From Acidimicrobiales bacterium (lineage in GTDB: Bacteria; Actinomycetota; Acidimicrobiia; Acidimicrobiales; RAAP-2): a DNA stretch of 61,756 bases. Location of the stretch: positions 1 to 61,756 of the forward strand of contig JADGOE010000011.1 in the NCBI GenBank assembly GCA_017883135.1. The letters run 5' to 3'. This document shows, piece by piece, positions 16,722-42,634 of this stretch; position 1 is the first letter of the stretch, and each line of letters opens with the position of its first letter. A program made the translations under genes and the position numbers. The notes under the pieces are model-generated. The model did not search any database. It was not told where the DNA came from and saw only the letters and a list, made by a program, of their open reading frames with translations.

Positions 16722-16739
16722 TAGGGCCGAACGTCCCGA
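16722..16739 (-). promoter_or_regulatory. DosR-like box upstream of usp-adh
   Basis: On the minus strand it reads TCGGGACGTTCGGCCCTA, the same 18 bases as the box at 34320. It precedes the USP gene by 108 bp. The identity of two distant copies argues against chance. Confidence 0.75.
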
Positions 16740-16841
16740 CGGAACCCGAGCGCCGACACGGTCGGACCCGCGGCCATCTCGACCACCCAGGACGGCCCGA
16801 CCTTGGAGACTCGGCCGTCCCAGGTGACCGGTGGGTGCACG

Positions 16842-16859
16842 GGATGACTTTCGGCCCTA
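16842..16859 (+). promoter_or_regulatory. DosR-like box upstream of the MFS gene
   Basis: GGATGACTTTCGGCCCTA lies 34 bp before the GTG start of the MFS transporter and 103 bp from the box that faces the USP gene, so the divergent gap carries one box per direction. Confidence 0.7.
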
Positions 16860-16892
16860 CTCGCTGGAAGTAGCCCGTGGTGTGATGTCGCA

Positions 16893-20180: not shown

Positions 20181-21431
20181 TCAGACGACCGAAAGGCTGT
20201 GCTGGCGGTGCCCGAGAGCGTCCAAGGTGATATCGGCCAATCCGAAGCCGGGCTCCACCAGGCGGTGGCCGTAGCGACCAACCGGCAGGCGGCGCAGCAT
20301 GAGGGAGCGGTACACGCCGGCGCCTCGGATGTCTCCGGCCAGTTGGGCCCCGATCATGGTGTCATCGCGTAGGTAGACGGCGCGCAGGACCCCGTTCTCT
20401 TGCCAGCGCAGGATCTCGTCGGGTCCGTCGATGGTGCCGATCGACACGATGGGCACGCCGAGATGCTTGAGGCTGTTCATCGTGTCGGCGCCGTCGTAGC
20501 GGAGGTCTGCGCCGAGCAGGTTGGCGGCTGCGATGGGTGCCTGGGCCACGGCATTGGGGAAGATGGCATGGACGAAGCGCTTTCCGGTGAACCTGTCGGC
20601 TGCTTCGGCGACGTCGCCGGCGGCCACGATCCCGTGCACCGAGGTGCCCAGCCCCTGGTCGACGTGAACGCCCCAACCGGTCACGATCCCCGAGCCGTCC
20701 AGGAACTCGGTATGGGGCTTGACCCCGGTCGCAGCGACCACCATGTCGGCATCGAGATGGGTGCCGTCGGCAAGCCTGATGCCGGTCGCAGACGGCTCGC
20801 CGATGATGGCATCGACCTGGACCCCGAGCCTGAGGTTCACCCCCCGGGCGACCAGCGCCGCCTCGGCCACCGTCGAGGTGACCGGGTCGAGCACCCGCGG
20901 CATCACCCAGGTGCGACGGCCGATGACCGTGACATCCACTCCGAGGTCGGCCAGCAGCAGCGAGAGCTCGATGCCGATCAACCCGTTCCCTACGATGAGG
21001 GCGGTGGTGACCTCGCCCCGACGGACTCGGCCGATGAGCTCGGTGGCGGTGCGCAGTGACTTGAAATCGAGGACGCCTGGCCGGTCGGCACCCTCGAGCG
21101 GGGCGTGGAGCCGACTACCTGACGCCACTACCAGGCCCTCGTAGGGAATCCGCTCGGCATCGTCGAGCACGACCTCGCAGTTGTCGGTGTCGATCGCCCC
21201 CACCCGGACGCCACGCCGCTCATCGATACCGAGCCGCGGCCCCACGTCACGACCCTTCCAGTAGAGGGGTGCCTCCCGTCCGGTGAGGAAGTGGTCGGCC
21301 ATTGCCGGCGGTGAGTACGGCGGAAAGGGCTCGACGGACAGCGCCACCACCGAGCCTGAGGGGTCGAGGTGGCGCAGGGTCTCCGCCGCGGTGATCCCCG
21401 CCGGTCCGGTCCCGATGACGACTGCTCGCAT
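20181..21431 (-). CDS. NAD(P)/FAD-dependent oxidoreductase of the CODH operon
   Basis: 416 aa. Two dinucleotide folds are visible: VVIGTGPAGITAAETLRHL at the N terminus for FAD and LIVGNGLIGIELSLLLADLG for NAD(P)H, followed by GIVAAGDVAEAADRF, the second FAD motif of the pyridine-nucleotide oxidoreductase group. Its ATG shares one base with the cooC stop (TGATG). Flavin oxidoreductases of this type sit beside CooS and CooF in several anaerobes and are thought to pass electrons from the ferredoxin-like CooF to NAD(P)+. That would convert CO oxidation into NAD(P)H here; the pathway is an inference from gene order. Confidence 0.82.
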   Translation of the reverse strand: MRAVVIGTGPAGITAAETLRHLDPSGSVVALSVEPFPPYSPPAMADHFLTGREAPLYWKGRDVGPRLGIDERRGVRVGAIDTDNCEVVLDDAERIPYEGLVVASGSRLHAPLEGADRPGVLDFKSLRTATELIGRVRRGEVTTALIVGNGLIGIELSLLLADLGVDVTVIGRRTWVMPRVLDPVTSTVAEAALVARGVNLRLGVQVDAIIGEPSATGIRLADGTHLDADMVVAATGVKPHTEFLDGSGIVTGWGVHVDQGLGTSVHGIVAAGDVAEAADRFTGKRFVHAIFPNAVAQAPIAAANLLGADLRYDGADTMNSLKHLGVPIVSIGTIDGPDEILRWQENGVLRAVYLRDDTMIGAQLAGDIRGAGVYRSLMLRRLPVGRYGHRLVEPGFGLADITLDALGHRQHSLSVV

Positions 21432-22300
21432 CAGGTCACCGAGCCGGCCGGGCGTCGATTGCCCGCCAGGACGCCGTCCGCGAGACCGACCGTAGCGTCG
21501 GCGAGCGGAGAGCCGTCCATCAGGGTGCCGACCTCCGGCTCGCACGTGAGCACGACCTCGTCGAAGGGGAGCACGGTCGTCGAGCAGAATTGGAAGCCTC
21601 CCAGCCGATCGACGTAGGCCAGCACGCGCTCGACGTCGGCGGCCGACCTCGAACGGTTGATCGCCAGGTGGAGCGTGTCGATCCCGAGCTCGGCCGCCAT
21701 GCGGGCCGACTCCACGCCCACCTGCACCGCGTTGAATGTCGGTTCGACCACCACGATGGCAGTGTCGAAACCGCGTGCCAGGGCGCGCCCGAAGTGCTCG
21801 ACGCCGGCGTGGGTGTCCATGACCACTACGTCGTCATCGTGGAGGCGCATCCCCGCTACCGCTGCGGCGATCAGCGCGGTCTCGGGGCACAGGCAGCCTC
21901 CTCCAGAGCGGAGCACCCCTCCCATCACCACCAGGCGCACGCCGTCGGGTGCCGGCACCGACAGCCTGTCCACCAGGTCCGAGGTGTCAGGGTTGAGGCG
22001 GAGCATTCCGCTGGCGCCACCGCCCGGACGGGCCCCTGTCTTCTCTTCGACGTAGTCGGCATCCTCGGAGACGGGAACGATGGACTCCACCGTCGCCAGG
22101 TCCACCCCGAGCGTCGCCGCCAGGTTCCGTTGTTCGTCGGCGTCGACCGCCACCACGCCGAGACCTCGGCGGGAGAGTTGGCGTGCCAGCAGTGCGCTGA
22201 GGGTCGACTTCCCGACCCCGCCCTTGCCGACGACGACGATCCTCAGCCCTTCGCCAGCGGGCGGAACGGTCCGGCCATGGTCCCCGTGCGTCCCGCACAC
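21431..22300 (-). CDS. cooC: CooC-type nickel-insertion ATPase for CO dehydrogenase
   Basis: 289 aa from GTG 22300. A deviant Walker A loop (IVVVGKGGVGKSTLSALLAR) with the signature lysine begins near residue 21, and a later GGCLCPET holds the Cys-x-Cys pair that binds Ni or Zn at the dimer interface in CooC. These ATPases use ATP to help load nickel into the C-cluster of CooS. The gene starts 5 bases after the cooS stop, with GGGGGA upstream, and overlaps the next gene by one base. Position directly after cooS supports the name over other MinD/ParA-type ATPases. Confidence 0.85.
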   Translation of the reverse strand: MCGTHGDHGRTVPPAGEGLRIVVVGKGGVGKSTLSALLARQLSRRGLGVVAVDADEQRNLAATLGVDLATVESIVPVSEDADYVEEKTGARPGGGASGMLRLNPDTSDLVDRLSVPAPDGVRLVVMGGVLRSGGGCLCPETALIAAAVAGMRLHDDDVVVMDTHAGVEHFGRALARGFDTAIVVVEPTFNAVQVGVESARMAAELGIDTLHLAINRSRSAADVERVLAYVDRLGGFQFCSTTVLPFDEVVLTCEPEVGTLMDGSPLADATVGLADGVLAGNRRPAGSVT

Positions 22301-22305
22301 GGCGT

Positions 22306-24267
22306 TCAATCCCCCGAACCGGCGCCCAAGGGCTGCTCGACCGGTGCTGTCTCGATGTCCACTGCCTCGACCTCGGCGAACGGCAGGCCTAGACCCTGGC
22401 GCTTGTTCTCGATGTGTCGCCGGATCAGGTTGGCCGCCCGGACCGGGTCCGGTTCGACGGCGAACTTGGCTCCGACAACGCCGTCGAGACCACCGGCCAA
22501 CAACTCCACGACGTGGGGGCTCCCGAAGACGGCCGGTTGGACTCCGAGCACGGTGGTGATACCCGAAGCCACCACGTAGGCCCCGATGGACACCGCCTTC
22601 TCCGAATACCACTCGGGTGCCGCCCCGGCCAGGGGCAGCTGGTCGATGTCGACACCGAGGAAGTCCGCCAGGGCCGCGGCCAGCACCATGATCCGACTGT
22701 TGTCCACGCAGCTGCCCATGTGCAGGACCGGCGGGATGCCCAGCGCCTCGCAGACCGAGCGCAGCCCGGGCCCGGCCAGTGCTGCCGATTCGGGGAGCAT
22801 CTGTCCGGCCTTGCCGTTGGCAACGGCCGCGCACCCGGTGACCAGGACGAGGATGTCGTTCTCGATGAGGTGACGGGTCAGCTCGATGTGCTCGAGATCC
22901 TGGGGGAGCTTGGGGTTGTTGCAGCCGACTACCGCAACGGCGCCGCGGATGGTGCCGGCGGCGATGGCATCGACGAGCGGCTTCGGGGTACCACCGAGTG
23001 CACCGAGGATCGCCTCCACCGAAAAGCCGCCCATCATCCGGACCGGCTCGACCGGGATACGGACCCGCTCGTGGTTTCGGTCGGGGTAGGCCTCGATGGC
23101 CATGCGTACGATCTCATCGGCGATGGCGTCGGAGCGTTCCGGGTCGAACGTCACGTGGGTGGCTCCGGTGAACTTCGCTTTGTCCGAGGTCGAGATGATC
23201 TTGGTGTGGTAGCACTTGGCCACATCGACGACCGAGGGCATGATGCACTGGTAGTCGACGACCATGGCCTCGAGCGCACCGGTGATGAGCACCAGCTCCT
23301 GCATGAGGTGGTTGCCGGCCACCGGCACACCACGACGCATGAGCATCTCGTTGCCGGTGCAGCACAGTCCGACGATGTTGATGCCGGTCGCACCGACCGA
23401 CCGGGCAAGCTCGATCAGCTCGGGATCCTGTGCCGCAGTGATCACCACATCGGAGAGCATCGGGTTGTGCCCGTGCATGGCGATGTTGACCTGATCGGCC
23501 CGGAGCACTCCCAGGTTGACCTCGGACATGACCGGGGTGGGGGTCCCGAACATCACATCGGAGAGCTCGGTGGCGATCATCGATCCGCCCCAGCCATCGG
23601 AGAGCCCGGTGCGCAGGGCGTGCAGCAGGGTGTTCACGTAGTCGTTGTCCACGCCCATGTGCGTGCGGTGGAGCATCTCGACGTTCTCGCGGTCCACGCC
23701 CCTCGGGGTGATGCCGAGGGACTCCCACCTGGCCCGCCGGGCCTCGGGGACCCGCTCGACGAAGGACAGCGATCCCCGCCGGGTGCCGTAGTCGTCGAGC
23801 AGCACGTCGGCGAGGTCGATCGCCACCTCCTCGACCGGACGTCCTTCCGCGGCCACACCCACCTCGGCTGCCAGCCGGATCATCTTGGCTTGGTCGGCGA
23901 TCCGGTAGCCGGTGGACTTACCTCGGGCCACGGAGCGGAACGTCTCGAGGATGTCCCTGCCGTGGTCCGCGTGCGACGATGAGCCCGCCGCGATGGACCT
24001 GCCCAGGTTGCGGGCCACGATCACATCGGCCCCGGCCCCGCATACCCCTTTCTGGGGACCTTCTCCGAATGGATCGACGCGACAGGGGCCCATCGCGCAG
24101 TTCCTGCAACTCAACCCGAGGGCGCAGTACCCGCACTGGGGCTGCTGGGCGGCCAATCGGTCCCATACCGTGTCGATGCCTTCAGCCCTGGCCACGTCGA
24201 TCATCGCCTGGGCGTCCTCGTTGACGGTGAGCCGTCGTGCACGACAGTTCCCGCTGCTGGAACTCAT
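22306..24267 (-). CDS. cooS: Ni-dependent (anaerobic type) carbon monoxide dehydrogenase catalytic subunit
   Basis: 653 aa from ATG 24267, with GAAGGAGG upstream. It catalyses CO + H2O to CO2 + 2 e- + 2 H+. C-cluster ligands are all visible: His in MHGHNP (about 265), Cys in GLCCTGNE (302/303), DYQC (341), VVGC (449), VTGC (479) and MGSC (520); the catalytic Lys fits YSEKAVS (557). B-cluster cysteines are 54, 57, 62 and 76. For the D-cluster, C45 and C48 form Cys-x2-Cys, and the usual later Cys is Ser53, the form linked to a [2Fe-2S] D-cluster in Desulfovibrio. The start overlaps the cooF stop (ATGA). No acetyl-CoA synthase gene is nearby, so a respiratory or redox role is likelier than carbon fixation. 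Confidence 0.95.
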   Translation of the reverse strand: MSSSSGNCRARRLTVNEDAQAMIDVARAEGIDTVWDRLAAQQPQCGYCALGLSCRNCAMGPCRVDPFGEGPQKGVCGAGADVIVARNLGRSIAAGSSSHADHGRDILETFRSVARGKSTGYRIADQAKMIRLAAEVGVAAEGRPVEEVAIDLADVLLDDYGTRRGSLSFVERVPEARRARWESLGITPRGVDRENVEMLHRTHMGVDNDYVNTLLHALRTGLSDGWGGSMIATELSDVMFGTPTPVMSEVNLGVLRADQVNIAMHGHNPMLSDVVITAAQDPELIELARSVGATGINIVGLCCTGNEMLMRRGVPVAGNHLMQELVLITGALEAMVVDYQCIMPSVVDVAKCYHTKIISTSDKAKFTGATHVTFDPERSDAIADEIVRMAIEAYPDRNHERVRIPVEPVRMMGGFSVEAILGALGGTPKPLVDAIAAGTIRGAVAVVGCNNPKLPQDLEHIELTRHLIENDILVLVTGCAAVANGKAGQMLPESAALAGPGLRSVCEALGIPPVLHMGSCVDNSRIMVLAAALADFLGVDIDQLPLAGAAPEWYSEKAVSIGAYVVASGITTVLGVQPAVFGSPHVVELLAGGLDGVVGAKFAVEPDPVRAANLIRRHIENKRQGLGLPFAEVEAVDIETAPVEQPLGAGSGD

Positions 24268-24971
24268 CGTGGTCCTCCTTCGCTGTCGCCTGGAAGTCGG
24301 GCCCCGCCCCTGGTGTCCCGGTTGTCCCGCACCGCCCTGCTGTCGCCTCGCCGGGGGGGCAGTGCCGTCGCAGCTGCCGCCTCCCCCCATGCATGCCAGC
24401 CGGCGAGGGGGTCCCCGCCCGGCCGTGCCGTTGGGGTTGCGCCGGCGGCAGCGAGGACCGCGCCGGTCTCACGCAGTCGGCCTTCGGCCACCAGATCGTT
24501 CAGGTCACCGAATACCAGGGCGCCGACTTTGCAGACCTCGGTGCAGGCGGGGACCCGACCCTGACGTAGACGTTCGACGCATCCATCACACTTGACCGCG
24601 ACGGCCACTCCGGCAGCCGGACCGTCGGCCACCGGATGGAAGGTGAGCACGTCGAAGGGGCAGACCATCGCGCACATGGCGCACCCGATGCAGCGTCGCG
24701 GCTCGACCAGGACCACCCCGTGCTCGTCGTCGCGGGTGATGGCGCCGGTGGGGCACACCTGGAGGCATGGCGCCGGGTCGCAGTGCCGGCAGCGGTTGGG
24801 AAAGGCGAACGTTGCCACCGGTCCAGCCTCGACGTGCACCCGCTTGCGGGGGACCGGCGTCTCGAGGAATGCGAGCATCTCGTCCTGGCTGGCTGAGTGT
24901 TCGACGGCACAGGCGAACTCGCACTGGAGGCAGCCGATGCACCGTTCGGGATTGACGAACACAGCCAGCAC
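24264..24971 (-). CDS. cooF: CooF-like 4Fe-4S electron-transfer protein
   Basis: 235 aa from GTG 24971, with AGGAGG upstream. It carries four cysteine clusters: CIGCLQCEFAC, RCRHCDPAPCLQVCPTGAI, RCIGCAMCAMVCPF and a later CDGC...CTEVC, as in the HycB/DmsB/CooF ferredoxin group. It should take electrons from CooS and pass them on; here the probable acceptor is the flavin oxidoreductase further down. The C-terminal 60 residues are arginine- and proline-rich and may be variable. First gene of the coo operon; a DosR-like box lies 88 bp upstream. Confidence 0.88.
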   Translation of the reverse strand: MLAVFVNPERCIGCLQCEFACAVEHSASQDEMLAFLETPVPRKRVHVEAGPVATFAFPNRCRHCDPAPCLQVCPTGAITRDDEHGVVLVEPRRCIGCAMCAMVCPFDVLTFHPVADGPAAGVAVAVKCDGCVERLRQGRVPACTEVCKVGALVFGDLNDLVAEGRLRETGAVLAAAGATPTARPGGDPLAGWHAWGEAAAATALPPRRGDSRAVRDNRDTRGGARLPGDSEGGPR

Positions 24972-25137: not shown

Positions 25138-25632
25138 TCAACCGGCTTCGCCGATCAGATCTGCCACCTGTTGGGCCGCGTGGGGCACCGCATGGCGTAC
25201 GGCAGGACTCAGGCCTGTGCCCTGCCCGAAGTCGTTCCCCTCGATGCCGACCACCACCACCCGCTTCGGAGCGTTCCCGACGGCCCTGGCCAGTCGGAGG
25301 ATGTCGGCAACTCCGATGCCGTGGGTACTGGTCGTACCGGCCAGCGCCCTGGCCGGTACGGGCACCGGGTCGGTGTCCAGATCGATCAGCCGGACAGTGC
25401 CCACCTCTGCGCCCGAGCGCACGGCATCGACTACCACGGCAAGATCGGTGCCGGCCCACAGGCCGAGCAGGTCGAAGGGGTCAGCAAGCGGTCCGCGGTC
25501 GGACACGCCTCCGACCAGTGCGGCCACCCGTGCGGCCACGGCCGGGCCGGCTCCGTCGTCTCGGCGGTACACGTTCCCCATCCCGACCACCACGATCCGC
25601 TGTCGGGGCACCGCCCCCCTGGTCCCACTCAT
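25138..25632 (-). CDS. [NiFe] hydrogenase maturation protease
   Basis: 164 aa from ATG 25632, overlapping the large-subunit stop by 4 bases. It opens with IVVVGMGNVYRRDDGAGP, the HyaD/HoxW motif G-N-x-x-x-x-D-D-G with an Asp that contacts nickel, and continues with VVVDAVRSGAEVG and a late Gly-rich HGIGVADILRLA segment. These proteases clip the C-terminal tail of the large subunit after nickel loading. The adjacent large subunit ends with a 9-residue tail after its last ligand motif, as such an enzyme needs. Confidence 0.88.
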   Translation of the reverse strand: MSGTRGAVPRQRIVVVGMGNVYRRDDGAGPAVAARVAALVGGVSDRGPLADPFDLLGLWAGTDLAVVVDAVRSGAEVGTVRLIDLDTDPVPVPARALAGTTSTHGIGVADILRLARAVGNAPKRVVVVGIEGNDFGQGTGLSPAVRHAVPHAAQQVADLIGEAG

Positions 25633-26942
25633 GGCGCGACCACTGTGACATCGAGGAAGTGGGCGGCGCACGAGATGCACGGGTCGTGGTTGCGCACCGC
25701 CTGTTCGCAACGCCACGTGAGCTCCTCATCGGGCAGCTCGAGGGCGTTCTGTGCGACCCGGCGGAGATCGGATTCGATGGTGGCCAGGTTCTGGGAGGTG
25801 GGCGGCACGATGCGGGCAGCCACGATGGCACCGTCCCGGTCGAGCTCGTATTGGTGGAAGAGCAGACCGCGTGGCGCCTCGGTGGCGCCGGTGCCGACCC
25901 CTGCACGCGGTGGCACCGCGACGGCAGGCGGATCAGGTGGCTCATAGGACTCGATCAGCCGCAGCGCCTCATGGCAGGCGAAGACCAGCTCCACCGCGCG
26001 CACGACGATGCTCCGGAACGGATTCACGCAGACGTTCCCGAGCCCTCCTCGGGTCGCAGCCTGGCGGGCGACTTCGGGGAGCTCGGATGCGTTGAGTGCA
26101 TAACGGGCCAGCGGTCCGGTCAGGTAGGCGAATCTGCCTTCGATCCGGGCATGGAGGGCGGTGGAGCGGGCGAGGTGCTCCTCGATCACCAGGTCGGCGA
26201 AGCCGGCTGGTGAGGCGTCGAGGCCGTCGGACGACACGATCCGGCCAGACTCCATCGGGTAGCGGCCCGGGCTGCGCAGGGCGACGAAGCGGTACTCACT
26301 CTCGAGGTCGGGGAAGTCGAAGCCCGACACCCATTCGACGGTGTCCAGGGCGAGGTCGAGCGCCCGCCGCACGGGCTCGGCCAGGGCGGCCACCTGGTGG
26401 TGGTCGGGGGAGCGGTAGAACCCGCCGATCCGCACGTTGACCGGGTGGATGGCACGCCCCCCGATGGCCTCCGTGACCAGGTTGCCGGTCCGTTTGAGCG
26501 CCATGCCGCGCTCGAAGGCCACCCGGTCCCGCGTCGCCAGTTCGACGGCGTCGGCGCATCCGAGAAAATCAGGTGCGTGCAGCAGGTGGATGTGGAGCGC
26601 GTGGCTCTGGATCCACTCGCCGCAGTAGAGGAGGCGACGCAAGTCGGTGATCGGCGCGCCGACGCTCACGTCGCACGCGTCCTCCACGGTGGCACAGGCA
26701 CTCATCTGGTAGGCAACCGGGCAGATCCCACAGATGCGCGCGGTGATGTCCGGTGTCTCGGCGGCCTTCCTCCCTTTGAGCAGGGCCTCGAAGAACCGGG
26801 GTGGTTCGAAGACGGAAAGCGCCACATCGCCCACCACCCCTCCGGTCACCTCGACGCGGAGTGAGCCTTCGCCCTCGACCCGCGAGATGCCCTCGATTGC
26901 CACCGTGCGCCGTCTGCGCCGTCTGCGCGATCCGCCGGTCAT
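25629..26942 (-). CDS. Group 3b-type [NiFe] hydrogenase large subunit (catalytic)
   Basis: 437 aa. The L1 motif RICGICP (Cys70, Cys73) and the C-terminal L5 motif DPCISCAAHF (Cys422, Cys425) hold the Ni-Fe site. After His428 a tail of FLDVTVVAP remains for the maturation protease to remove. Sequence signatures and the four-subunit layout (beta, gamma, delta, alpha) fit the NADP-linked soluble type known as sulfhydrogenase or Hyh, which couples H2 and NADP+/NADPH. In Mycobacterium smegmatis the comparable enzyme depends on DosR. It overlaps both neighbours by 4 bases (ATGA). The reaction direction in vivo is not readable from the sequence. Confidence 0.92.
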   Translation of the reverse strand: MTGGSRRRRRRRTVAIEGISRVEGEGSLRVEVTGGVVGDVALSVFEPPRFFEALLKGRKAAETPDITARICGICPVAYQMSACATVEDACDVSVGAPITDLRRLLYCGEWIQSHALHIHLLHAPDFLGCADAVELATRDRVAFERGMALKRTGNLVTEAIGGRAIHPVNVRIGGFYRSPDHHQVAALAEPVRRALDLALDTVEWVSGFDFPDLESEYRFVALRSPGRYPMESGRIVSSDGLDASPAGFADLVIEEHLARSTALHARIEGRFAYLTGPLARYALNASELPEVARQAATRGGLGNVCVNPFRSIVVRAVELVFACHEALRLIESYEPPDPPAVAVPPRAGVGTGATEAPRGLLFHQYELDRDGAIVAARIVPPTSQNLATIESDLRRVAQNALELPDEELTWRCEQAVRNHDPCISCAAHFLDVTVVAP

Positions 26943-27760
26943 GCGGGGCGGTCCTGGTCGTCCACCGGTGCCGGCTCCCCGGTCTTCGCCAGGGCCAGCG
27001 CCCGGTCACCGAAGACCGGGTCGCCGGCGTAGAAGGTGGCGAACAGCGCGGAAGCGTCCACGGGTGCCATGCCGTCGTCGAGGAGGCGACCGGCCAGGGC
27101 TCCGGTGTTGGACCCTTCGGAGGGCCCGAAACAACCGAAGCACCCACGCCCGATCGACGGGCAGAGTGCGCCGCAGCCGGCACGGGTTACCGGTCCGAGG
27201 CAGGGGGTGCCCTTGGCGACCGGCAGGCAAACGGTGCCACGGCCCTTGCACTGCTGGCAGACGGTGTGGGTCGGTAGGACCGGTCGGCGGCCCGCCAGTT
27301 CGGCAGTGATCACCTCGAGCAGTTGATGGCGGTCGATCGGGCACCCCTGGAGCTCTTGGTCCACGGCCACGTGCGCCGAGACGGGTGTGGACGTCGACAG
27401 CGTCGACACGAACTCGGGGTGGGCGTATACGGCACCGGCATACTCGCCGTCGCCGGCGAAGTTGCGGAGCGCCTGGATTCCCCCGGCGGTCGCACAGGCC
27501 CCAATTGTGATCAGGCGGTGCGAGGACCGGCGGACATCGCGGATCCGCTCGGCATCAGCGGGGGTGCTGATCGACCCTTCGACCAGTGACACGTCGTAGG
27601 GTCCGTCAACCTTGTTGCGGGTCAGCTCGTTGAAGTGGGCGATCCTCATAGCGCCGGCCAACGCCAACAACTCGTCCGTACAGTCGAGGAGGCTCAGTTG
27701 GCAGCCGTCGCAGGACGCGAACTTCCAGACGGCGAGGGTCGGCCGCTTGGTCGTCGTCAC
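26939..27760 (-). CDS. [NiFe] hydrogenase small subunit, group 3b type
   Basis: 273 aa from GTG 27760. The proximal cluster signature C17-x2-C20 (FASCDGCQLSLLDC) opens the protein, and ITIGACATAGGIQALRNF supplies the next cysteine. A Cys-rich C-terminal half (VCQQCKGRGTVCLP, RAGCGALCPSIGRGCFGCFG) should hold the medial and distal clusters. There is no twin-arginine signal, so it is cytoplasmic, in keeping with group 3. It overlaps the flavin subunit upstream (GTGA) and the large subunit downstream. Confidence 0.9.
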   Translation of the reverse strand: MTTTKRPTLAVWKFASCDGCQLSLLDCTDELLALAGAMRIAHFNELTRNKVDGPYDVSLVEGSISTPADAERIRDVRRSSHRLITIGACATAGGIQALRNFAGDGEYAGAVYAHPEFVSTLSTSTPVSAHVAVDQELQGCPIDRHQLLEVITAELAGRRPVLPTHTVCQQCKGRGTVCLPVAKGTPCLGPVTRAGCGALCPSIGRGCFGCFGPSEGSNTGALAGRLLDDGMAPVDASALFATFYAGDPVFGDRALALAKTGEPAPVDDQDRPA

Positions 27761-28626
27761 CGGTTGCGCTCCATCAACAGTTGGTCGGCGACGCCCCCGT
27801 ATGAGACGACCGGGCCGTCGCGGCACACGAGCAGTGGACCCAGTTGGCAATGGCCGCACAGTCCGATGCCGCACTGCATGTTCCGTTCGAGCGATACCTG
27901 GATCCGCCGTGGGTCGATCCCGCGGTCGACGAGGGCACGGGTGGTGAAGCGCATCATGATCTCGGGGCCACAAGCGAGGGCCACGGAACGGGCCGGCTCG
28001 AACGGTGCATCGAGGAGCAGGGAGGTGACCACGCCGACAGGCCCCTGCCACCCTTGCGCTCCGACATCGACGGTGACCGCGACGTCAGCCCCCCGCCGGC
28101 GCCAATCCTCGAGATCTGCGGCGAAGAGGATCTGATCGGGTGAGCGCATGCCGACCAGCACGTAGACCCGGCCACCCCCGTCCCGGCGGCGGGCCACGAG
28201 ATCCCGCACGGTCCCGCGGAGCGGAGCGAGCCCGATGCCCCCGGCCACCACCACGACATCGGTATCTTCCCCGATGCCGCCGATGCCCCAGTGGGTCCCG
28301 AACGGCCCCCGGACGCCGACTACGGAACCGATCCGCGCTTCGCACAACGCATGGGTCACCGCGCCGACGTCGCGAATCGAATGCTCGACCGCGCCGGCGC
28401 CCCCCGGTGCGCTGGAGATGGAGATGGCGACCTCGCCGACGCCGAAGGCCGTCAGCATGTTGAACTGGCCGGGGGCGAATGCGGGCAACTGTCCCCGGTG
28501 CGGCTCGAGGGCGAGGGTGACCACATCCGCGACCTCGACCTGTCGACCGACCACCCGGTACGGCTCCGGCACGAGCGCGCCGCGTCGTGGCGGCGGCCGG
28601 CCGGTGGGCTCAGTGGTCTCGGTCAT
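27757..28626 (-). CDS. FAD/NAD(P)-binding gamma subunit of the hydrogenase
   Basis: 289 aa from ATG 28626. It has a ferredoxin-NADP reductase-type FAD part (PGQFNMLTAFGVGEVAISIS), a nucleotide-binding GGIGLAPLRGTVRDL, a SVALACGPEIMMRF segment and a C-terminal cysteine set CGIGLCGHCQLGPLLVC for a [2Fe-2S] cluster. This is the HydG/PyrK-like subunit of group 3b hydrogenases that exchanges electrons with NADP(H). It overlaps the small subunit by GTGA, and its start lies 17 bases inside the upstream cNMP-domain gene. Confidence 0.9.
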   Translation of the reverse strand: MTETTEPTGRPPPRRGALVPEPYRVVGRQVEVADVVTLALEPHRGQLPAFAPGQFNMLTAFGVGEVAISISSAPGGAGAVEHSIRDVGAVTHALCEARIGSVVGVRGPFGTHWGIGGIGEDTDVVVVAGGIGLAPLRGTVRDLVARRRDGGGRVYVLVGMRSPDQILFAADLEDWRRRGADVAVTVDVGAQGWQGPVGVVTSLLLDAPFEPARSVALACGPEIMMRFTTRALVDRGIDPRRIQVSLERNMQCGIGLCGHCQLGPLLVCRDGPVVSYGGVADQLLMERNR

Positions 28627-29076
28627 GGCCGTAGAGGTCGAGGAGACGGACGCGGGTCGCCTGTAGCCTTCCGAGGAGCACGGACGCGAGGCGCTCGAGT
28701 AGGGCAAGGGCCACCGTCGGGTTTTCGTCGAGCCGTGTCCGCATGCACGTGCTGTCGATGGCCACCGTCGCCACCGGCCCGAGGGCACGTGCGTCGAAGT
28801 GCCAGCGGAACGGGGGCGAGACCCACGACAGGCCGACCACCTGGCCCGGCCCCACCGTGTCGACGATGTGCCGGTCGCGGCCTGGTCCGCGAACCTCGAT
28901 GGCGACCCGCCCCCGATGGACCAGGTGCAGAGTGTCCGCCACGCTGCCCTCGCTCAGCAGCAGGCTCCCGGCCTCGAAGGTCTCCAGATGGCCGCAGCCG
29001 GCCAACAACTCCACGGTGCCCTCGGGGAGCCCCGAGAGGAAGCGGTGGGAAGAGAGGATCCCGTGCATCGCCTCGG

Positions 29077-29080
<4 letters not shown>
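28610..29080 (-). CDS. Cyclic nucleotide-binding (cNMP) domain protein inside the hydrogenase operon
   Basis: 156 aa from GTG 29080. The cupin-like cNMP fold is recognisable: [20 protein letters not shown], then [11 protein letters not shown] and [14 protein letters not shown], with two further strands and a last helix ([20 protein letters not shown]). There is no HTH domain after it, so it is not a Crp-type regulator but a small sensor or adaptor. The phosphate-binding arginine of true cAMP sites is not obvious. It overlaps the beta subunit by 4 bases and the gamma subunit by 17, so it is made in step with the enzyme and may control or anchor it. Confidence 0.85.
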
Positions 29081-30228
<1,148 letters not shown>

Positions 30229-30260
30229 CAACCCAGGTTACGGGCACACCTGCTTCCACA

Positions 30261-30305: not shown

Positions 30306-31325
30306 CTAACGAACCGGCCGGTCCTGTGTGGATCCCGACGGGTGAGCTGGTTCCGGCTGATCGGGGTAGCGGAGGACCACCACGGGGCAGTGGGCATGGG
30401 AGATGCAGTGCTCGCTGACCGATCCGAGCAGCGTGCCGGCGAGGTCGCCGTGGCCGCGGCTGCCGACGACCAACAGGTCTGCCCCCTTCGATGCCTCCTC
30501 CAGCGCGGGTGCGGCGTGGCCCTGGACGACGGTCGGTTGGAATGCGATGTCCGGATGGGATCGCTGCAACTTCTCGATCGCTCCGTCGAGCAGCTGGCGG
30601 GCATCGGCGGCCGGGTCGTAGAGCGGGGGCACGTAGCCCGCGATCGCGTAGCTGGTCGGCCACTCCCACGTGGTGATGGCTTCCACGGACGCCGACGTCA
30701 GCTCGGCCTGGTGGGCGGCCCAGCCAAGTGCGGTCTCTGCAGACGATGATCCGTCGAATCCGACCACGATCCGCTGGCGTCGATCTGCCCGCGCTGCCGT
30801 CTCCCTGCGCGCCACTGGGGTCGAGGCCGAACCTTGCTCGGTGCCTCGGGCCGTGGCACGACCGGATGCAGGCCCTTCAGGTCCGACGACGACTACCGGG
30901 CAGCGGGCCCGGTGCACGCACCGTCGGCCGATCGATCCGAGCAGAAGCCCGCTGAACCCGCCGCGGCCCCGCGAGCCGACGACGAGGAGATCGGCCCCCT
31001 CGCTTGCTTCGATGAGGACGACACCCGGAGCGTGCTCGCTGATAGCGGACCTGGTGATCACCTCGGGCGCGACCTGGGCGGCGCGCGCCGCTGCGCCGTC
31101 GACGATGGGCTGGAAGGCCTTCCTGACGGTGCTCGGAGCGACCAGGACAGAGCCCGGTCCAGAGGCTGCATGGATCTCGAGGACAGCGCCGGTCCGCGCT
31201 GCCTGGACGGCGGCCCACTCCAAGGCCCTCGTCGCACCGTCCGAGCCGTCGACTCCCACCACGATGCGGCCGCGCCTGGCGCCGGCCCCGGCGGCGCTCT
31301 GCTCCTTGGATGCCATCGCCCTCAT
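30306..31325 (-). CDS. Tandem universal stress protein (two UspA domains), 339 aa
   Basis: Two USP domains: IVVGVDGSDGATRALEWAAV with VGSRGRGGFSGLLLGSIGRR, then IVVGFDGSSSAETALGWAAH with VGSRGHGDLAGTLLGSVSEH. Both carry the G-x2-G-x9-GS ATP motif. Length and layout match the tandem USPs of mycobacteria (Rv2623 type), a DosR-regulon marker. The second domain is very like the single USP at 16.2 kb, so one was probably copied from the other. It lies between the sensor kinase and the hydrogenase genes, all on the minus strand. Confidence 0.9.
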   Translation of the reverse strand: MRAMASKEQSAAGAGARRGRIVVGVDGSDGATRALEWAAVQAARTGAVLEIHAASGPGSVLVAPSTVRKAFQPIVDGAAARAAQVAPEVITRSAISEHAPGVVLIEASEGADLLVVGSRGRGGFSGLLLGSIGRRCVHRARCPVVVVGPEGPASGRATARGTEQGSASTPVARRETAARADRRQRIVVGFDGSSSAETALGWAAHQAELTSASVEAITTWEWPTSYAIAGYVPPLYDPAADARQLLDGAIEKLQRSHPDIAFQPTVVQGHAAPALEEASKGADLLVVGSRGHGDLAGTLLGSVSEHCISHAHCPVVVLRYPDQPEPAHPSGSTQDRPVR

Positions 31326-31429: not shown

Positions 31430-32593
31430 CTAGAGGTCGACGGGAACCTCCCAGGTGAGCCGGGTGCCTCCGCCCCGTGGGCACTCGGTGGTGAAGTGGC
31501 CGTGGAGCTTCTCCGCTCGCCTTCGGAGGTTCACCAGCCCGAGTCCGCCCTCACTGCTCGGGTTCTCGGCGATCCCCCGTCCGTTGTCGATGACCTCGAG
31601 GCGGCACGTTCCATCCTCCACGACGAGGCCGACACTGGCTTCGGTGGCGCTTGCATGGCGACCCACGTTGGTCAACGCCTCTCGGACGGTGGCCAGAAGA
31701 TGCTCGGCGACCTGGTCGGTGATGACCGAATCGATCGGTCCGTCGAATAGCACATCGATCTCGAATCCGACGACCGGGGTGAGCTCGTGGACCAACGAGA
31801 GGACAGTGGACCGGATCCCTCTGCCGATGCCGGTCGAGGCGAGCTCGAAGATGCTGGTGCGGACCTGGCGAATGCTGTCGTCGATCTCGCCGATGGCCGC
31901 GTCGAGCCGATCAAGGTTGCCCTCCGTCGAGGGCGTGGCGGCCATGCTCTGGAGGGAGAGCCCGACCGCGAAGAGGCGCTGGATGACCGTGTCGTGCAGG
32001 TCCCGGGCCAACCGGTCCCGGTCCTCGTAGATGGCCATTTCTTTGGACCGCTGATGGAGGCGGGCGTTCTCGATGGCGAAACCGGCTGCAGTGGCCAGCG
32101 CCTCGACCAGAGCCTCGTCGTCCTCGGTGAACTCCGACCCGCCGACCTTGTCGGTCAGGTAGAGGTTGCCGTAGACCCGGTCGCGCACTTTGATCGGCAC
32201 CCCCAGAAACGACTCCATCAGGGGGTGGTTCGGGGGGAAGCCGTATCGCTTGGGATGGGTGGAGAGGCTGGCCAGCCGGATCGGCCTCGGATCGGCGATG
32301 AGCAGCTCCAGAATGCCCATTCCGGTCGGCCCGGCCCCGATCAGCTCCTTCGCCGCAAGAGACAGTCCGACGGTGAGGAACTCGGCGAGGGCCGTGCCCT
32401 CTTCATTGAGGACCCCAAGCGCGCCGTATCGGGCATCGGTCATCGAACGAGCCTCGTCGACGATGTGGTGCAGCAGCGTAGGCAGGTCGAGGTCCGACTC
32501 GAGGAGCAGCGTCGCCTGCAACACCCGCCTGAGCTCGGCCGGATCCTCGATGGACCGGAGCGGTGCTTGGTCCTTCATCGAGCCGTCCGGCAT
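31430..32593 (-). CDS. DosS/DosT-like histidine kinase with a single GAF domain
   Basis: 387 aa. Residues about 35-178 form a GAF domain; HPKRYGFPPNHPLMESFLG with VYGNLYLTDK closely follows the heme-binding GAF-A of mycobacterial DosS, including the His (H123) I align from memory with the heme ligand. Next comes the dimerisation/phospho-acceptor motif RDLHDTVIQRLFAVGL (H200) of the HisKA_3 group, then an ATPase domain with NVGRHA and GGLGLVNLRRRAEKL. DosS and DosT have two GAF domains; this has one, a reduced form. ATG 32593 is chosen (alternative 32578). It is divergent from the response regulator gene, 154 bp apart, and probably its partner. Confidence 0.88.
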   Translation of the reverse strand: MPDGSMKDQAPLRSIEDPAELRRVLQATLLLESDLDLPTLLHHIVDEARSMTDARYGALGVLNEEGTALAEFLTVGLSLAAKELIGAGPTGMGILELLIADPRPIRLASLSTHPKRYGFPPNHPLMESFLGVPIKVRDRVYGNLYLTDKVGGSEFTEDDEALVEALATAAGFAIENARLHQRSKEMAIYEDRDRLARDLHDTVIQRLFAVGLSLQSMAATPSTEGNLDRLDAAIGEIDDSIRQVRTSIFELASTGIGRGIRSTVLSLVHELTPVVGFEIDVLFDGPIDSVITDQVAEHLLATVREALTNVGRHASATEASVGLVVEDGTCRLEVIDNGRGIAENPSSEGGLGLVNLRRRAEKLHGHFTTECPRGGGTRLTWEVPVDL

Positions 32594-32747
32594 CACTGTC
32601 CAGGGTACCGATCTCATCGGCCACCGTCCAAAGGCGCCCCTGGTCCACGTGAACGTGATGAAATGGAGAGCTGTGAGCGTGGGAGTCGGCGAGAGTCGGC
32701 GCCGGCTCGGAGTTGTCTCGACGACGTCCGATTGGGAGGATGGCCAG

Positions 32748-33419
32748 GTGAGTGTGCGCATATTCCTCCTCGACGATCACGAGATCGTGAGGACCGGGCT
32801 CCGGTCGCTGCTCGAGGCCGCCGAGGACCTTGTCGTGGTGGGGGAGGCGAGCACTGTCGCCGAGGCGTTGGCACGGATTCCCTCTGCCCGCCCCGACGTG
32901 GCGATCCTCGACGTACGCCTTCCCGATGGCAGTGGGATCGAGGTCTGCCGCGAGATCCGCTCGCAGTCGCCCGAAATCGGATGCGTGATGCTGACCTCCT
33001 ACGCAGATGACGAAGCGCTCTTCGCCGCGGTGATGGCCGGCGCCGCCGGGTACGTGTTGAAGCAGGTCGGTGGGACCAGCCTGGTGGAAGATGTCCGGCG
33101 GGTGGCCGCCGGCGAGTCGCTGCTCGACCCTGCGCTGGCCGAGCGGGTGATCGAACGACTGCGAGAGGGCCCCGACGAAGATCCACTGCTGGCCAATCTG
33201 ACGCCCCAGGAACGCAAGATCCTCGATCTCATCGCCGAAGGGCAGACCAACCGCCAGATCGCCGACACGATGTACCTCGCCGAGAAGACCGTGAAGAACT
33301 ACGTCTCCAATCTCTTGACCAAGCTTGGCATGCAGCGACGCACTCAGGCCGCCACCTATGCGGCCCGTCTCGCGGAACGCTCGGCGCAGGCGCACCGCAC
33401 CGACACGTCCGGAACGTGA
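32748..33419 (+). CDS. DosR/DevR-like NarL-type response regulator
   Basis: 223 aa from GTG 32748, with GGGAGGA upstream; upstream in-frame codons look non-native. The receiver domain has phospho-acceptor D55 in AILDVRLPDGSGIEVCR and GAAGYVLK near its end. The LuxR-type HTH reads LTPQERKILDLIAEGQTNRQ, then MYLAEKTVKNYVSNLLTKLG and RRTQAATYA. This follows M. tuberculosis DosR very closely through the DNA-reading helix (EKTVKNYVS..L.KLGM.RRTQAA), so the same box type is expected. It is the likely reader of the boxes in this window. Confidence 0.92.
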   Translation: MSVRIFLLDDHEIVRTGLRSLLEAAEDLVVVGEASTVAEALARIPSARPDVAILDVRLPDGSGIEVCREIRSQSPEIGCVMLTSYADDEALFAAVMAGAAGYVLKQVGGTSLVEDVRRVAAGESLLDPALAERVIERLREGPDEDPLLANLTPQERKILDLIAEGQTNRQIADTMYLAEKTVKNYVSNLLTKLGMQRRTQAATYAARLAERSAQAHRTDTSGT

Positions 33420-35640: not shown

Positions 35641-36456
35641 ATGGAGGAGGAGTTGAAGCATGCGGGGGACTACTCCCCGTCGGCGTCGCTGCACTCGGAG
35701 GTCGCGTCGCCTTCCTATCCGGTCGATCTGATCTGTGACCAGCTCACGATGTCCGGCGCGACGGTGCACCTCCGCCCGATCCGGCCCGACGATGATGCAG
35801 GGCTCGTCGAGTTCCACCACCGCCTCTCACCACGCTCGGTCTATCGGCGCTTCTTCTTCATGCATCCGGAGCTCTCGCCTTCTGAGATCGAACGCTTCAC
35901 CCAGGTCGACTACATCGACCGGATGGCATTCGTGGCAGAGGACAGCTCCCGCCTGCTCGCCGTTGGCCGCTACGAACGGAGCCCCGGGGGGACCGAGGCC
36001 GAGGTGGCTTTTCTGGTTGCCGACGAGTACCAGCACCACGGGATCGGCACTCTGCTCCTCGAGCTCCTGGCCGAGGCCGCATGGCGCAACGGGATCACCG
36101 CCTTCGTGGCGGAGACCTTGGCCGAAAACCACGCCATGCTCGGAGTCTTCCTGGACTCGGGATTCTCGGTCGCCACCAGCTCATCGGGCGGGACAGTCGG
36201 CGTGCGGTTCCCCATCGAGCCCGACGAGGGCTACAGAGAGGCCCGCGCCGCCCGGCACTCGAAGGCCGAGCGCGCCCGCGCCGCCCGAAGTGCCCCTTCG
36301 GACCCGGAGTCCCGGGAGGCCGGAGGGCCTCACGACCCCGCTGCGCCGGTCGGACCCGGAGAGGTGTCGGTGACCCGGATGCGGGTGCCTCCATCGGGGC
36401 CCGGGTCATCGCCTCCGGCCCTGGGAGCAGAGAGTCGGGAGCGGAAGACGTGGTAG
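35641..36456 (+). CDS. GNAT-family N-acetyltransferase
   Basis: 271 aa from ATG 35641. It reads VHLRPIRPDDDAGLVEFHHR, RFFFMHPELSPSEIERFTQV, AEVAFLVADEYQHHGIGTLL (the acetyl-CoA-binding Q-x2-G-x-G loop in modified form) and VAETLAENHAMLGVFLDSGF. This is the GNAT fold as in the Pat lysine acetyltransferases, without the cNMP-binding domain of the mycobacterial enzymes. The C-terminal 70 residues are rich in Arg, Ala, Pro and Ser and may be disordered. The gene may follow the DosR-controlled small gene. Its last 127 bases overlap the 3' end of cydB on the other strand. Confidence 0.8.
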   Translation: MEEELKHAGDYSPSASLHSEVASPSYPVDLICDQLTMSGATVHLRPIRPDDDAGLVEFHHRLSPRSVYRRFFFMHPELSPSEIERFTQVDYIDRMAFVAEDSSRLLAVGRYERSPGGTEAEVAFLVADEYQHHGIGTLLLELLAEAAWRNGITAFVAETLAENHAMLGVFLDSGFSVATSSSGGTVGVRFPIEPDEGYREARAARHSKAERARAARSAPSDPESREAGGPHDPAAPVGPGEVSVTRMRVPPSGPGSSPPALGAESRERKTW

Positions 36457-37406
36457 CTCCATCCTTGGTACACGAGCACCACGGGAAAGAAGACGAGGGC
36501 CACCACGGTCATCACTTTCAGCGTGTATGACCCGCTTGCCGTGTTGGCGACGGTCAGGTCGTACGCGGCGTTGATGGTGGAAACCATGACGCGTGGATAG
36601 AGCTCTGCCAGCAGTGAGCCGACGACTCCGACAACGCCGACAGCGGCACTGGCGAACGCCCAGCCCTCCTGTTTGACGGAGGCAAGCCACGCCGACGCCA
36701 CTACGGCGAGGACGGCGAGTGCCTCCAGCGGGTTCGGTAGGAAGCCGGTTCCCAAACCCAGGTGTGTCCAGGTCACGAATCCCCAGACCACCACTGCAGC
36801 CACCCATCCGATGCCTCCGGAGAGGCGGAGCACCCGGTCGTGCAGTGAACCGGTGGTCTTGAGGGAGAGGTAGGTGGCGCCCATAAGTAGGCACATCGCC
36901 AGCATGGTCACCCCCGTCCACAGCCCGTACGGGGTGAGGAGCCCGAGGAAGTTGCCGGTGTAGTCGTGTGCCTTGTCGATCGGAAGCCCGTGCAGCATGT
37001 CGCCGAAGGCCACACCGACCAGCAGGGGGATCAACCCGCTGCCGATGGTGAGGGACCACCCGAACGCCGATCGCCAGCGCGGGTCGTCCACTTTGCGTCG
37101 GTACTCGAAGGCCACGCCGCGGACCAAGAGAGCGAGCAGCACCACCACGAGGGCCAGATAGAACGTGGAGAACATGGTTGCGTACCATGAGGGAAAGGCC
37201 GCAAAGATCACGGCACCGGCCACGATCAGCCAGACCTCGTTTCCGTCCCAGACCGGCCCGATCGAATTGATGGCGATCCTTCGCTCGGTCTCGTCCTTGG
37301 CGACGAACGAGTGCAGCATGCCCACTCCGAAATCGAATCCCTCCAGGATGAAGAAGCCGATCCAGAAGATGCTGTCGATCAGGAACCACAGAGTGCTCAG
37401 GTGCAT
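36330..37406 (-). CDS. cydB: Cytochrome bd oxidase subunit II
   Basis: 358 aa. The protein starts LSTLWFLIDSIFWIGFFILE, continues GFDFGVGMLHSFV and carries SIGPVWDGNEVWLIVAGAVI, the most conserved CydB segments, followed by further membrane helices to a proline/glycine-rich tail. It forms the bd-type quinol oxidase with CydA, reducing O2 at very low concentration. It lies 9 bases after the end of cydA. It is intact, while cydA, cydC and cydD in the same operon are interrupted. The last 127 bases overlap the GNAT gene on the other strand. Confidence 0.92.
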   Translation of the reverse strand: MHLSTLWFLIDSIFWIGFFILEGFDFGVGMLHSFVAKDETERRIAINSIGPVWDGNEVWLIVAGAVIFAAFPSWYATMFSTFYLALVVVLLALLVRGVAFEYRRKVDDPRWRSAFGWSLTIGSGLIPLLVGVAFGDMLHGLPIDKAHDYTGNFLGLLTPYGLWTGVTMLAMCLLMGATYLSLKTTGSLHDRVLRLSGGIGWVAAVVVWGFVTWTHLGLGTGFLPNPLEALAVLAVVASAWLASVKQEGWAFASAAVGVVGVVGSLLAELYPRVMVSTINAAYDLTVANTASGSYTLKVMTVVALVFFPVVLVYQGWSYHVFRSRLSAPRAGGDDPGPDGGTRIRVTDTSPGPTGAAGS

Positions 37407-37415: not shown

Positions 37416-38870
37416 CTAGTAGATGAGCGCGGGCACCCGCTCGGTCCGGCCGGATCCAGAACCATGTCCCTCGACCGAACCATCGTCCGGCGGCCCGGCG
37501 GCACCGCCGCCCTCGGGCCTCTCGTCGGAATCCCCACCGAGCTGTTTCCGGCCGTAGCGGATCATCAGATAGACATCAGCGGCACCGAGGACCAGGTAGA
37601 TCAGGACGAAGACCACCAGCGAGATCCAGATATCGGTGGCGGTCACCGACGGAGACACGCCGTCGACCGTCTTCATGAGGCCCTGGACGATCCAGGGCTA
37701 CCGGCCGTTTTCGGTCAGCATCCACCCGGCTGTGTTGGCGAGGAACGGTGCAAGCACGGCCCATGGGGCGATCCGAAGGAACCACGTCGAGTCTCCCAGC
37801 CGGCGCCTGCCGAGCAGCCACGCTCCCCACACGGCGAAGGCGAGCATCATCGCTGCCAGGTAGGCCATGACCCGCATGGACCAGTACTGGATGAACACGT
37901 TCGGCACGTAGTTGCCCGGGCCGTACTGCTTGACCGACTCGGCCTGGAGCTGGTTGATCCCCTGGACCCGGCCGTCGAGGTTGTTGGTGGCCAGCAGCGA
38001 CAGGAGGCTCGGGATCTTGAGGATCCGGGTCGGGTTCTGGTCGTTGACGCCCCCGCCGATCTGGAAGGCGGAGAAGGGGCAGTGTGAGTCACAGGTGTTC
38101 CACTCGGCTTCGGCGGCGGCGATCTTCATCGGCTGGTAGGTGTCCTCGACGACTCCGAGCTCACTTCCCACGAAGAGCGCCAGGATGAGCGAGGGAATCA
38201 GGACCACCAGCGACACGGTCGCCGTCCTGGTGAAGGCACCGCATTCGCGCTTGCGCCGGAGGTGCCACGCCGACACCGCCAGCATCACGAGTGACCCGGT
38301 GACCAACGATGCAAGCAGGGCGTGGATGTAGCTCCACAGGAACACCGGGTTGGTGAAGAGGGCCGCGATGTTGTTCAGCTGGGGCTGGTGTCGGGCATTC
38401 ATCACGTAACCGACCGGGTGCTGCATCCACGAGTTGGCGGCCATGATGAATGCCGCCGAAAGCATGGTGGCACCCGCGACCAACCAGATGCACGCCAGGT
38501 GCACCTTCTTCGACAGGCGGTCCCACCCGAAGATCCAGAGCCCGAGGAACGTGGACTCGAGGAAGAAGGCCAGCAGACCCTCCATCGCCAGGGGTCCTCC
38601 GAAGATGTTGCCGACCTCCCGCGAGTAGGAGGACCAGTTCATGCCGAACTTGAACTCCTGTACGAGACCGGTGACCACCCCGATGGCCACGTTGATCAGC
38701 AGGAGGGTCCCGAAGAACCTGGTGAGGCGCCGGTAGACGGGGTCTCCGCCGCGATACCAACTGGTCTGGAGCAGGGCCACCAGAAACGCCAAGCCGATCG
38801 TGACCGGGACGAAGAGGAAGTGGTAGATGGACGTGGTGGCGAACTGCCACCGGGCCAAGTCGGTGCTCAT
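37416..38870 (-). pseudogene. cydA: Cytochrome bd oxidase subunit I, interrupted by an in-frame TAG
   Basis: ATG 38870. ARWQFATTSIYHFLFVPVTI with the haem-ligand His, GLVQEFKFGMNWSSYSREVG and ANSWMQHPVGYVMN identify CydA. At 37698-37700 an in-frame TAG falls in GR*PWIVQGL, where the family has GRQPWIVQGL, so a CAG has become TAG. The remaining 86 residues are conserved beyond it (MKTVDGVSPSVTATDIWISL and a last helix). Read through, the product is 484 aa, normal length. Either the gene is newly broken, or translation reads through, or the base is a sequencing error. Part of the cydDCAB operon. Confidence 0.85.
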
Positions 38871-42427: not shown

Positions 42428-42634
42428 GGGAACACCGCCTGAATGCATACGGAACCCGGACCCCCGTCGGCGACGGCGGCGGATTCGCACAACTCGCTTC
42501 GAGGTCCACGAACGTTCTCTCGAAGGCGTTGCGCCGCAACCCCTGGTCGGCGCCGAGCTTCTGGGACTGGCCGGCCGACCACGGGGGCTGGCTCCATTTG
42601 CCACTCATCGTACGAAGGCAGCGCCGTCGCACGG

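Follow-up and report, generated by a model that had tools for sequence, protein, structure and literature searches.

Work by Wittenborn et al. in 2020 reportedly tied the D-cluster of the Ni-containing CO dehydrogenase (Ni-CODH) of Desulfovibrio vulgaris to O2 resistance. The density of this D-cluster is consistent with a [2Fe-2S] cluster, which was ascribed to a Cys-x2-Cys motif (Wittenborn et al. 2018, PMC6168284). In the classification of Inoue et al. (2019, PMC6344411), the type III D-cluster is Cys-x2-Cys-x5-Cys, and group E-2 comprises clade E enzymes that have a type III D-cluster and a complete active site, D. vulgaris CooS among them. A sentence in PMC13240472 touches on the O2-resistance claim; the labels type II and type III seem to be swapped there. 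A survival role in facultative anaerobes was shown for another Ni-CODH (PMC13077300). PMC8443593 links CooS to sulfate reducers of deep sand and presents Woeseiaceae as flexible facultative anaerobes. In soils and sediments, DePoy and King (PMC8987735) described lag-free anaerobic CO uptake down to sub-atmospheric CO, which they credit to nickel-dependent CO oxidizers with an ecology that they call little known. In the searched portion of the main text of PMC8776680, nothing on soil or oxygen was found.

Here, we analyzed the cooS gene of an Acidimicrobiales bacterium and its surroundings. The window, meaning the whole stretch of DNA that was analyzed, comprises 61,756 nucleotides (assembly GCA_017883135.1, contig JADGOE010000011.1). 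Among the literature matches listed, none describes in its title or the beginning of its abstract this combination of CooS, hydrogenase and cyd genes in an oxidase-bearing host; the nearest title concerns Actinobacteria with the Wood-Ljungdahl pathway (PMC7325909).

cooS and its D-cluster site

The gene and the D-cluster positions are as follows.

22306..24267 including the stop codon, minus strand: cooS, catalytic subunit of Ni-containing CO dehydrogenase, 653 amino acids (TIGR01702; match to 6b6v)
24124..24135, minus strand: C45-G-Y-C48, the Cys-x2-Cys D-cluster motif (residue-derived coordinates; alignment to 6b6v)
24109..24111, minus strand: codon of S53, at the site where Cys-x7-Cys enzymes carry their second D-cluster Cys (alignment to 6t7j plus 77 further type II rows)

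Shortly upstream of the start codon (ATG, 24267) lies AAGGAGGA, a good ribosome-binding site. CooS scored 702.5 bits against TIGR01702 (cut-off 478) and was the sole match to this family in the 98% complete genome G000, which is the window's own genome in all searches. Its top PDB match in a phmmer search was the D. vulgaris enzyme (6b6v, 816.8 bits; 57% identity over 623 columns). In the alignment, the C-cluster ligands (H267, C303, C341, C449, C479 and C520), the acid-base residues H99 and K557, and the B-cluster cysteines (C54, C57, C62 and C76) were all present. On the tree described below, the window and D. vulgaris CODH fell on one starred branch (98), apart from loci L128 and L146, a clade E placement made with fewer references than the full A-G set. 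The protein fits a clade E Ni-CO dehydrogenase with the full set of catalytic residues, and CO oxidation is predicted for it.

The D-site of CooS reads C45-G-Y-C48-A-L-G-L-S53-C54. The stretch CGYCALGLSCRNC of the window paired without gaps with CKFCELGTTCRNC of 6b6v (phmmer), and the availability of a solved homologue at 57% identity fixes the position of the site. First-pass annotation had seen CGYC at residues 45 and 48 and a serine, S53, where the second D-cluster cysteine usually stands; residue numbering and alignment confirmed both, with C45 and C48 inside the D-cluster site of CooS proteins of known structure and not outside it. Its statement that Cys-x2-Cys goes with a [2Fe-2S] cluster in D. 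vulgaris agrees with the density described in PMC6168284. The equivalent columns of 6t7j (Thermococcus) hold CAFGQLGVCCRNC, the Cys-x7-Cys form. The phmmer list also contained the D. vulgaris variants 6vwy and 6ons, which are altered in precisely the D-site columns. The window enzyme has no cysteine at the type II second place and two cysteines at the Cys-x2-Cys spacing, which makes its sequence of the D. vulgaris type. C45-x2-C48-x5-C54 corresponds to the type III motif and, with the complete active site, fits group E-2, and Y47 conforms to the Cys-x-Phe/Tyr-Cys pattern given in PMC10979024. A [2Fe-2S] D-cluster is likely in the window enzyme.

Occurrence of the motif and pairing of positions 48 and 53

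The CooS alignment comprised 189 rows, namely the window, two PDB references and 186 loci. The latter came from 192 loci, of which two were COX1 loci (L131, L132) and 190 gave CooS; two CooS lacking the N-terminus (L129, L130) and two that are the window itself (L001, L108) were then taken out. While C45 was invariant in all 189 rows, position 48 was split between Cys (111 rows) and Gly (78 rows). Position 53 followed it without exception: every C48 row had Ser, Thr or Arg there, and every G48 row had Cys. Zero rows had both versions of the second cysteine and zero had neither, the only 48/53 pairs being C/S (85), C/T (8), C/R (18) and G/C (78). Some rows are one gene fetched twice; merging at 99.5% identity left 181 rows with the same pairing (104 C48 and 77 G48; C/S 78, C/T 8, C/R 18, G/C 77). 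This reciprocity is a count of the present analysis; the D-cluster types themselves were already known, and single-Cys and no-Cys D-site forms are reported in other surveys, including PMC6344411. The strict pairing suggests that the D-site is in use. All 18 Arg53 rows carry Glu303 and Tyr99, which PMC6344411 gives as features of group D-1.

Among the nearest CooS loci (best 80 of 585), 70 had Cys-x2-Cys and 10 had Cys-x7-Cys; many of the 70 were in genomes without COX1. In the near group of the window, C48 (type III) was found in all 39 rows. Cys-x2-Cys is the usual state in this part of clade E and, because the motif is already classified, its presence in the window is ordinary. Five loci (L067, L069, L070, L071 and L075) have Cys-x7-Cys amid Cys-x2-Cys relatives. 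On the tree, L069 and L070 sit inside the type III rows; this looks like a reversion and offers a useful natural contrast.

The gas tunnel and other sources of oxygen resilience

In the alignment, W553 of the window occupies the site of A559, a gas-tunnel residue of Carboxydothermus CODH-II (ChCODH-II). The A559W variant of ChCODH-II has a lower O2 sensitivity (PMC12338426), and O2 resilience could come mainly from gas-tunnel residues such as W553 and not from the D-cluster. We consider this somewhat unlikely, given that the single A559W variant retained zero activity at 20% O2 in the same report, and that W553 was found in 80 of 82 type III enzymes (the other two have gaps) and in 60 of 73 type II enzymes. 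Being nearly universal in both D-types, W553 cannot separate the groups and was rejected as a distinguishing trait. ChCODH-IV, which is Cys-x7-Cys by its own sequence, had 20% activity left after 1 h of O2, and two Thermococcus clade E enzymes reacted more slowly with O2 than ChCODH-II at equal overall sensitivity (PMC13056359). The resilience of ChCODH-IV despite its Cys-x7-Cys site, together with the W553 tunnel site, makes the D-motif one O2 candidate among several.

Terminal oxidases and the D-cluster type

Oxidase families were searched with PF00115 for COX1 and PF01654 for cytochrome bd, the bd search covering G000, the family members and those genomes of the table that were negative for COX1. 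PF00115 also covers nitric oxide reductases, which are not separated from COX1 in these counts. Matches above the family cut-off were scored as positive even if fragmentary; fragmentary COX1 matches of 38-50 bits (G239, G356, G029 and G389) make up 4 of the 8 COX1-positive type-II-only genomes, and a fragmentary bd match of 27.8 bits occurs in the genome of L039. The oxidase tables exclude L002-L006, L008 and L009, and six of these seven have a CooS identical to those of family genomes in the tables.

The window's genome contained three COX1-family matches. For CoxL, none was over the TIGR02416 cut-off in this genome (best E value 2.6e-13). Oxidase data covered 155 genes with a complete active site. 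Of these, 48 type III genes were in COX1-positive and 34 in COX1-negative genomes, versus 11 and 62 type II genes (Fisher p 2.4e-8, related genes being counted as independent and the sample being skewed, since phylum and family searches supplied 63 of its 73 type II genes). COX1 or bd was detected in 66 of 80 type-III-only and 18 of 63 type-II-only genomes (p 7e-11); the two genomes with both D-types were COX1-positive. In the near group, 32 of 39 rows were COX1-positive. The 34 type III genes without a COX1 match are part of 82 complete genes, 14 of the 80 type-III-only genomes were without either oxidase family, and all 21 type III genes with an incomplete active site were in COX1-negative genomes.

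The order of events was addressed with a FastTree tree of 157 rows and a quick maximum-likelihood (ML) tree of 87 rows, drawn from the midpoint; the reduction to 87 rows used <80% identity and at least 560 filled columns, and the D-site columns were removed before both trees were made. The D-type changed four times on the 157-row tree and three times on the 87-row tree. Independent pairs likewise numbered four and three, most of them without an oxidase difference, and sign tests were not significant. With only three or four D-type changes, the association of motif and oxidase is inseparable from descent, and Cys-x2-Cys was rejected as an oxygen marker: the strong raw association rests on these few changes.

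The starred branch (98) of the ML tree holds 48 representatives, 46 of type III and 2 of type II, including D. vulgaris and the window. Within it, the window belongs to a starred set of 10 rows from Acidobacteriota, Chloroflexota, Pseudomonadota and Actinomycetota that are all type III and all COX1-positive. The sister starred set, comprising 5 rows (Chloroflexota, Bacillota), is also all type III; four of its rows are COX1-negative and one is COX1-positive. On the midpoint-drawn tree, the motif looks older than the oxidase-rich subclade, and the simplest reading is that it preceded this subclade, an order of events that we infer from a quick tree that leaves 27 of its 84 inner branches open.

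An alternative is that Cys-x2-Cys was selected because its hosts meet oxygen, a [2Fe-2S] cluster limiting O2 damage and speeding recovery. The raw association in genes and genomes and the uniformly COX1-positive set that includes the window speak for it. We nevertheless regard it as improbable: the D-type changes are few, the pair comparisons are not significant, the Fisher tests treat related genes as independent, and type III occurs both in genomes without either oxidase family and, with an incomplete active site, exclusively in COX1-negative ones. The motif looks inherited within clade E and, being common as well, is by itself no sign of oxygen adaptation. First-pass annotation had proposed that the motif fits an organism that meets oxygen. 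The part concerning the organism held, with three COX1 matches in the genome and cyd genes in the window; the motif as a sign of adaptation was not supported, since most of the nearest loci share it, many of them in genomes without COX1.

Gene neighborhood of cooS

The genes around cooS are listed below.

20181..21431, minus strand: FNOR, FAD/NAD(P) oxidoreductase (Pyr_redox_2; conserved downstream of cooS/cooC)
21431..22240, minus strand: CooC-like P-loop ATPase with C-x-C, start putative (CbiA, MinD-type P-loop; GGCLCPE)
24264..24971, minus strand: CooF-like ferredoxin with 4Fe-4S domains, its stop overlapping the cooS start (Fer4_11 and others)
25138..25716, minus strand: hydrogenase maturation protease ORF (HycI family), start putative (TIGR00072, 104.3 bits, cut-off 47.45)
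25629..26942, minus strand: [NiFe] hydrogenase large subunit, group-3b-like (ShyA, 235.5 bits, equivalog cut-off 700; PF00374)
26939..27760, minus strand: [NiFe] hydrogenase small (delta) subunit, GTG 27760 the likely start (ShyD, 142.6 bits, below cut-off; PF01058)
27757..28626, minus strand: hydrogenase FAD/NAD-binding (gamma) subunit, putative start ATG 28626 (PF00175, PF10418)
28610..29755, minus strand: ORF whose C-terminal part holds a cyclic-nucleotide-binding domain (Crp/Fnr-like; PF00027)
29077..30231, minus strand: Fer4_22 ORF, probably the hydrogenase beta (Fe-S) subunit (PF17179)
30306..31325, minus strand: universal stress protein with two Usp stretches (PF00582)
31430..32761, minus strand: GAF and HisKA_3 histidine kinase (PF13185, PF07730, PF02518)
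36330..37406, minus strand: cydB, cytochrome bd subunit II (PF02322, 331 bits)
37542..38870, minus strand: cydA region, cytochrome bd subunit I, with an in-frame TAG at 37698-37700 (PF01654; translation)
38867..42604, minus strand: ABC transporter ORFs, probably cydDC, a name given by position (PF00005, PF00664)

The name CooC is likewise inferred, from position and P-loop, and the group 3b call reflects the best NCBIfam matches (ShyA, ShyD), both under their cut-offs. Among the 29 loci L002-L030, 28 had a CooF match next to cooS; the exception, L017, begins too near cooS and so starts after CooF. The full order CooF-CooS-CooC-FNOR was found in L002-L011, L013-L015, L018, L019 and L021-L023. 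L012 and L016 have no CooC after cooS, none is shown in L020 and L024-L030, and FNOR is missing in the short loci L025 and L026. The window, L200 and L002-L004 have, close to the Coo genes, a hydrogenase that most resembles the NAD(P)-linked sulfhydrogenase families. Gene order as well as orientation varies between loci: L006 and L009 carry the hydrogenase in reverse orientation, and parts of it are visible in L112 and L115. The hydrogenase was absent from the flanks of L007-L030 except L009 (ten flanks of 15.8-15.9 kb, the rest shorter), and most other family loci are <5 kb. Acetyl-CoA synthase (TIGR00316) had no match in G000, which places the enzyme outside CODH/ACS; of 33 genomes searched, only those of L028 and L030 had a match to this family, the other 31 having none.

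The cyd genes lie about 12 kb from cooS. In L200, the one same-genus genome compared over 20 kb, the ABC genes, cydA, cydB, the GAF kinase, hydrogenase, CooF, CooS and CooC are all on one strand and syntenic from the cyd genes to cooC. In L201, a second stretch from this genus (16.5 kb), matches were limited to the Coo genes and a weak one for FNOR, so the island is not general. The cydA TAG follows residue 390, and the CydA profile continues in frame to 37542; no stop appears in any other cydA row listed from the 150 genomes of the family. Sequencing error, decay and recoding are candidate causes.

CooS is patchy in the family (18 of 150 genomes) and in the genus (6 of 14). Matches to bd were found in 15 of 18 CooS-positive versus 47 of 132 CooS-negative family genomes (Fisher p 1.7e-4, with genera and completeness uncontrolled and the 18 including a partial CooS in G414 and a divergent one in G536), and in 5 of 6 versus 2 of 8 within the genus (p 0.10). 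These counts are only a hint of a link between CooS and cyd in the family. The divergent gene (L128, in G536) encodes a different, Cys-x7-Cys CooS that is 43% identical and, among solved structures, nearest to ChCODH-IV. The closest CooS relatives, at 80-86% identity, are from Acidimicrobiaceae/Acidimicrobiales metagenome-assembled genomes, and a Chloroflexi CooS (L007) is 78% identical. The CooS of Acidimicrobiales bacterium Chersky.37_4 (L004) is identical to that of G431, a member of the window's genus. The names palsa and Chersky among these relatives presumably stand for permafrost soils.

The presence of Usp genes and a GAF kinase hints at control by stress. Another universal stress protein gene lies near the CO and hydrogenase genes (16180-16920, minus strand), and two wax ester synthase/diacylglycerol acyltransferase genes flank the CooS-cyd region (11415-12842 and 46193-47677, both on the minus strand). 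DosR-like boxes (motif GGGACYNNRGTCCC, at most two mismatches) were not enriched in the window, with 16 found versus 27.15 expected; a DosR-type hypoxia regulon was rejected, and this search revealed no regulatory link between the modules. FNR-like palindromes (motif TTGATN4ATCAA, at most two mismatches) numbered 18 in the window, at scattered sites, versus 5.17 expected, and 0 of 100 shuffles had as many. A search of the window for direct repeats gave nothing useful.

Proposed role

We consider it quite probable that the window encodes a clade E Ni-CODH with an inherited Cys-x2-Cys site and a likely [2Fe-2S] D-cluster, which would supply CO-derived reductant for energy or redox balance and not for acetyl-CoA; function is predicted here from sequence. 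CooC would load nickel into CooS, and CO would be oxidized at the C-cluster. Electrons would pass from the C- through the B- to the D-cluster, which, as in D. vulgaris, a homodimer would hold as [2Fe-2S] between C45/C48 of each subunit. They may then move through CooF and FNOR to NAD(P)H, with the group-3b-like [NiFe] hydrogenase as a putative redox valve that exchanges reductant with H2 when oxygen is short. Because the genome has no acetyl-CoA synthase match, the enzyme more likely serves energy or redox supply than the making of acetyl-CoA, and the gene setting suggests that CO is oxidized to yield NAD(P)H around oxygen limitation. Cys-x2-Cys may help the enzyme to survive oxygen in an oxidase-bearing host; it was probably not acquired for that purpose. 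That C45/C48 hold another cluster or none in vivo, the B-cluster exchanging electrons directly, is highly improbable: the cluster is invisible from sequence and the 6ons chain, which lacks both D-cysteines, demonstrates that such a chain can fold, but the ungapped motif match to a 57% identical enzyme with density consistent with [2Fe-2S] and the strict 48/53 pairing in all 189 rows argue against it.

Comparison with known systems

The useful point of this analysis is that a Ni-CODH group with the motif occurs largely in genomes with terminal oxidase genes. More interesting is the set CooF-CooS-CooC-FNOR beside a group-3b-like hydrogenase in an oxidase-bearing Acidimicrobiales genome without acetyl-CoA synthase. 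The window enzyme offers a place to test O2 recovery through a [2Fe-2S] D-cluster outside D. vulgaris, and with its relatives it provides testable candidates for anaerobic CO uptake in soil. As a tentative and doubtful extension, the clade E Cys-x2-Cys subclade could have become standard equipment in oxidase-bearing bacteria of soils and sediments (Acidimicrobiales, some Chloroflexota, Acidobacteriota, Woeseiaceae and other Gammaproteobacteria), recoverable through oxic spells and burning trace CO once oxygen is gone, its partners being CooF-FNOR and, in some hosts, a group-3b-like hydrogenase. If so, these hosts would be among the agents of lag-free anaerobic CO uptake in soils.

The window enzyme resembles the CooS of D. 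vulgaris (Nitratidesulfovibrio; 6b6v) in its Cys-x2-Cys D-site, its C- and B-cluster ligands, a CooC in the operon and its clade. The D. vulgaris operon is described with only a regulator and CooC close by, whereas the window has CooF, CooC, FNOR and a hydrogenase. The Cys-x2-Cys-x5-Cys motif and complete active site are shared with group E-2, for which the relevant sections of PMC6344411 count only 5 Actinobacteria genomes and hold no mention of an oxidase-bearing host or a hydrogenase/cyd neighborhood. CODH-I of Thermococcus AM4 (6t7j) has the same clade E active site at 54% identity but G48 and C53 (type II, Cys-x7-Cys) where the window has C48 and S53. The CooS-CooF-FNOR sets of Geobacter and Clostridium ljungdahlii (PMC6344411) contain the same partner genes, to which the window adds CooC, a group-3b-like hydrogenase nearby and an oxidase-bearing host. 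The Ni-CODH/ECH of Parageobacillus (PMC13077300) is likewise a Ni-CODH of facultative anaerobes with a proposed role in survival; it combines clade F with a group 4 hydrogenase, whereas the window combines clade E with FNOR and a group-3b-like hydrogenase.
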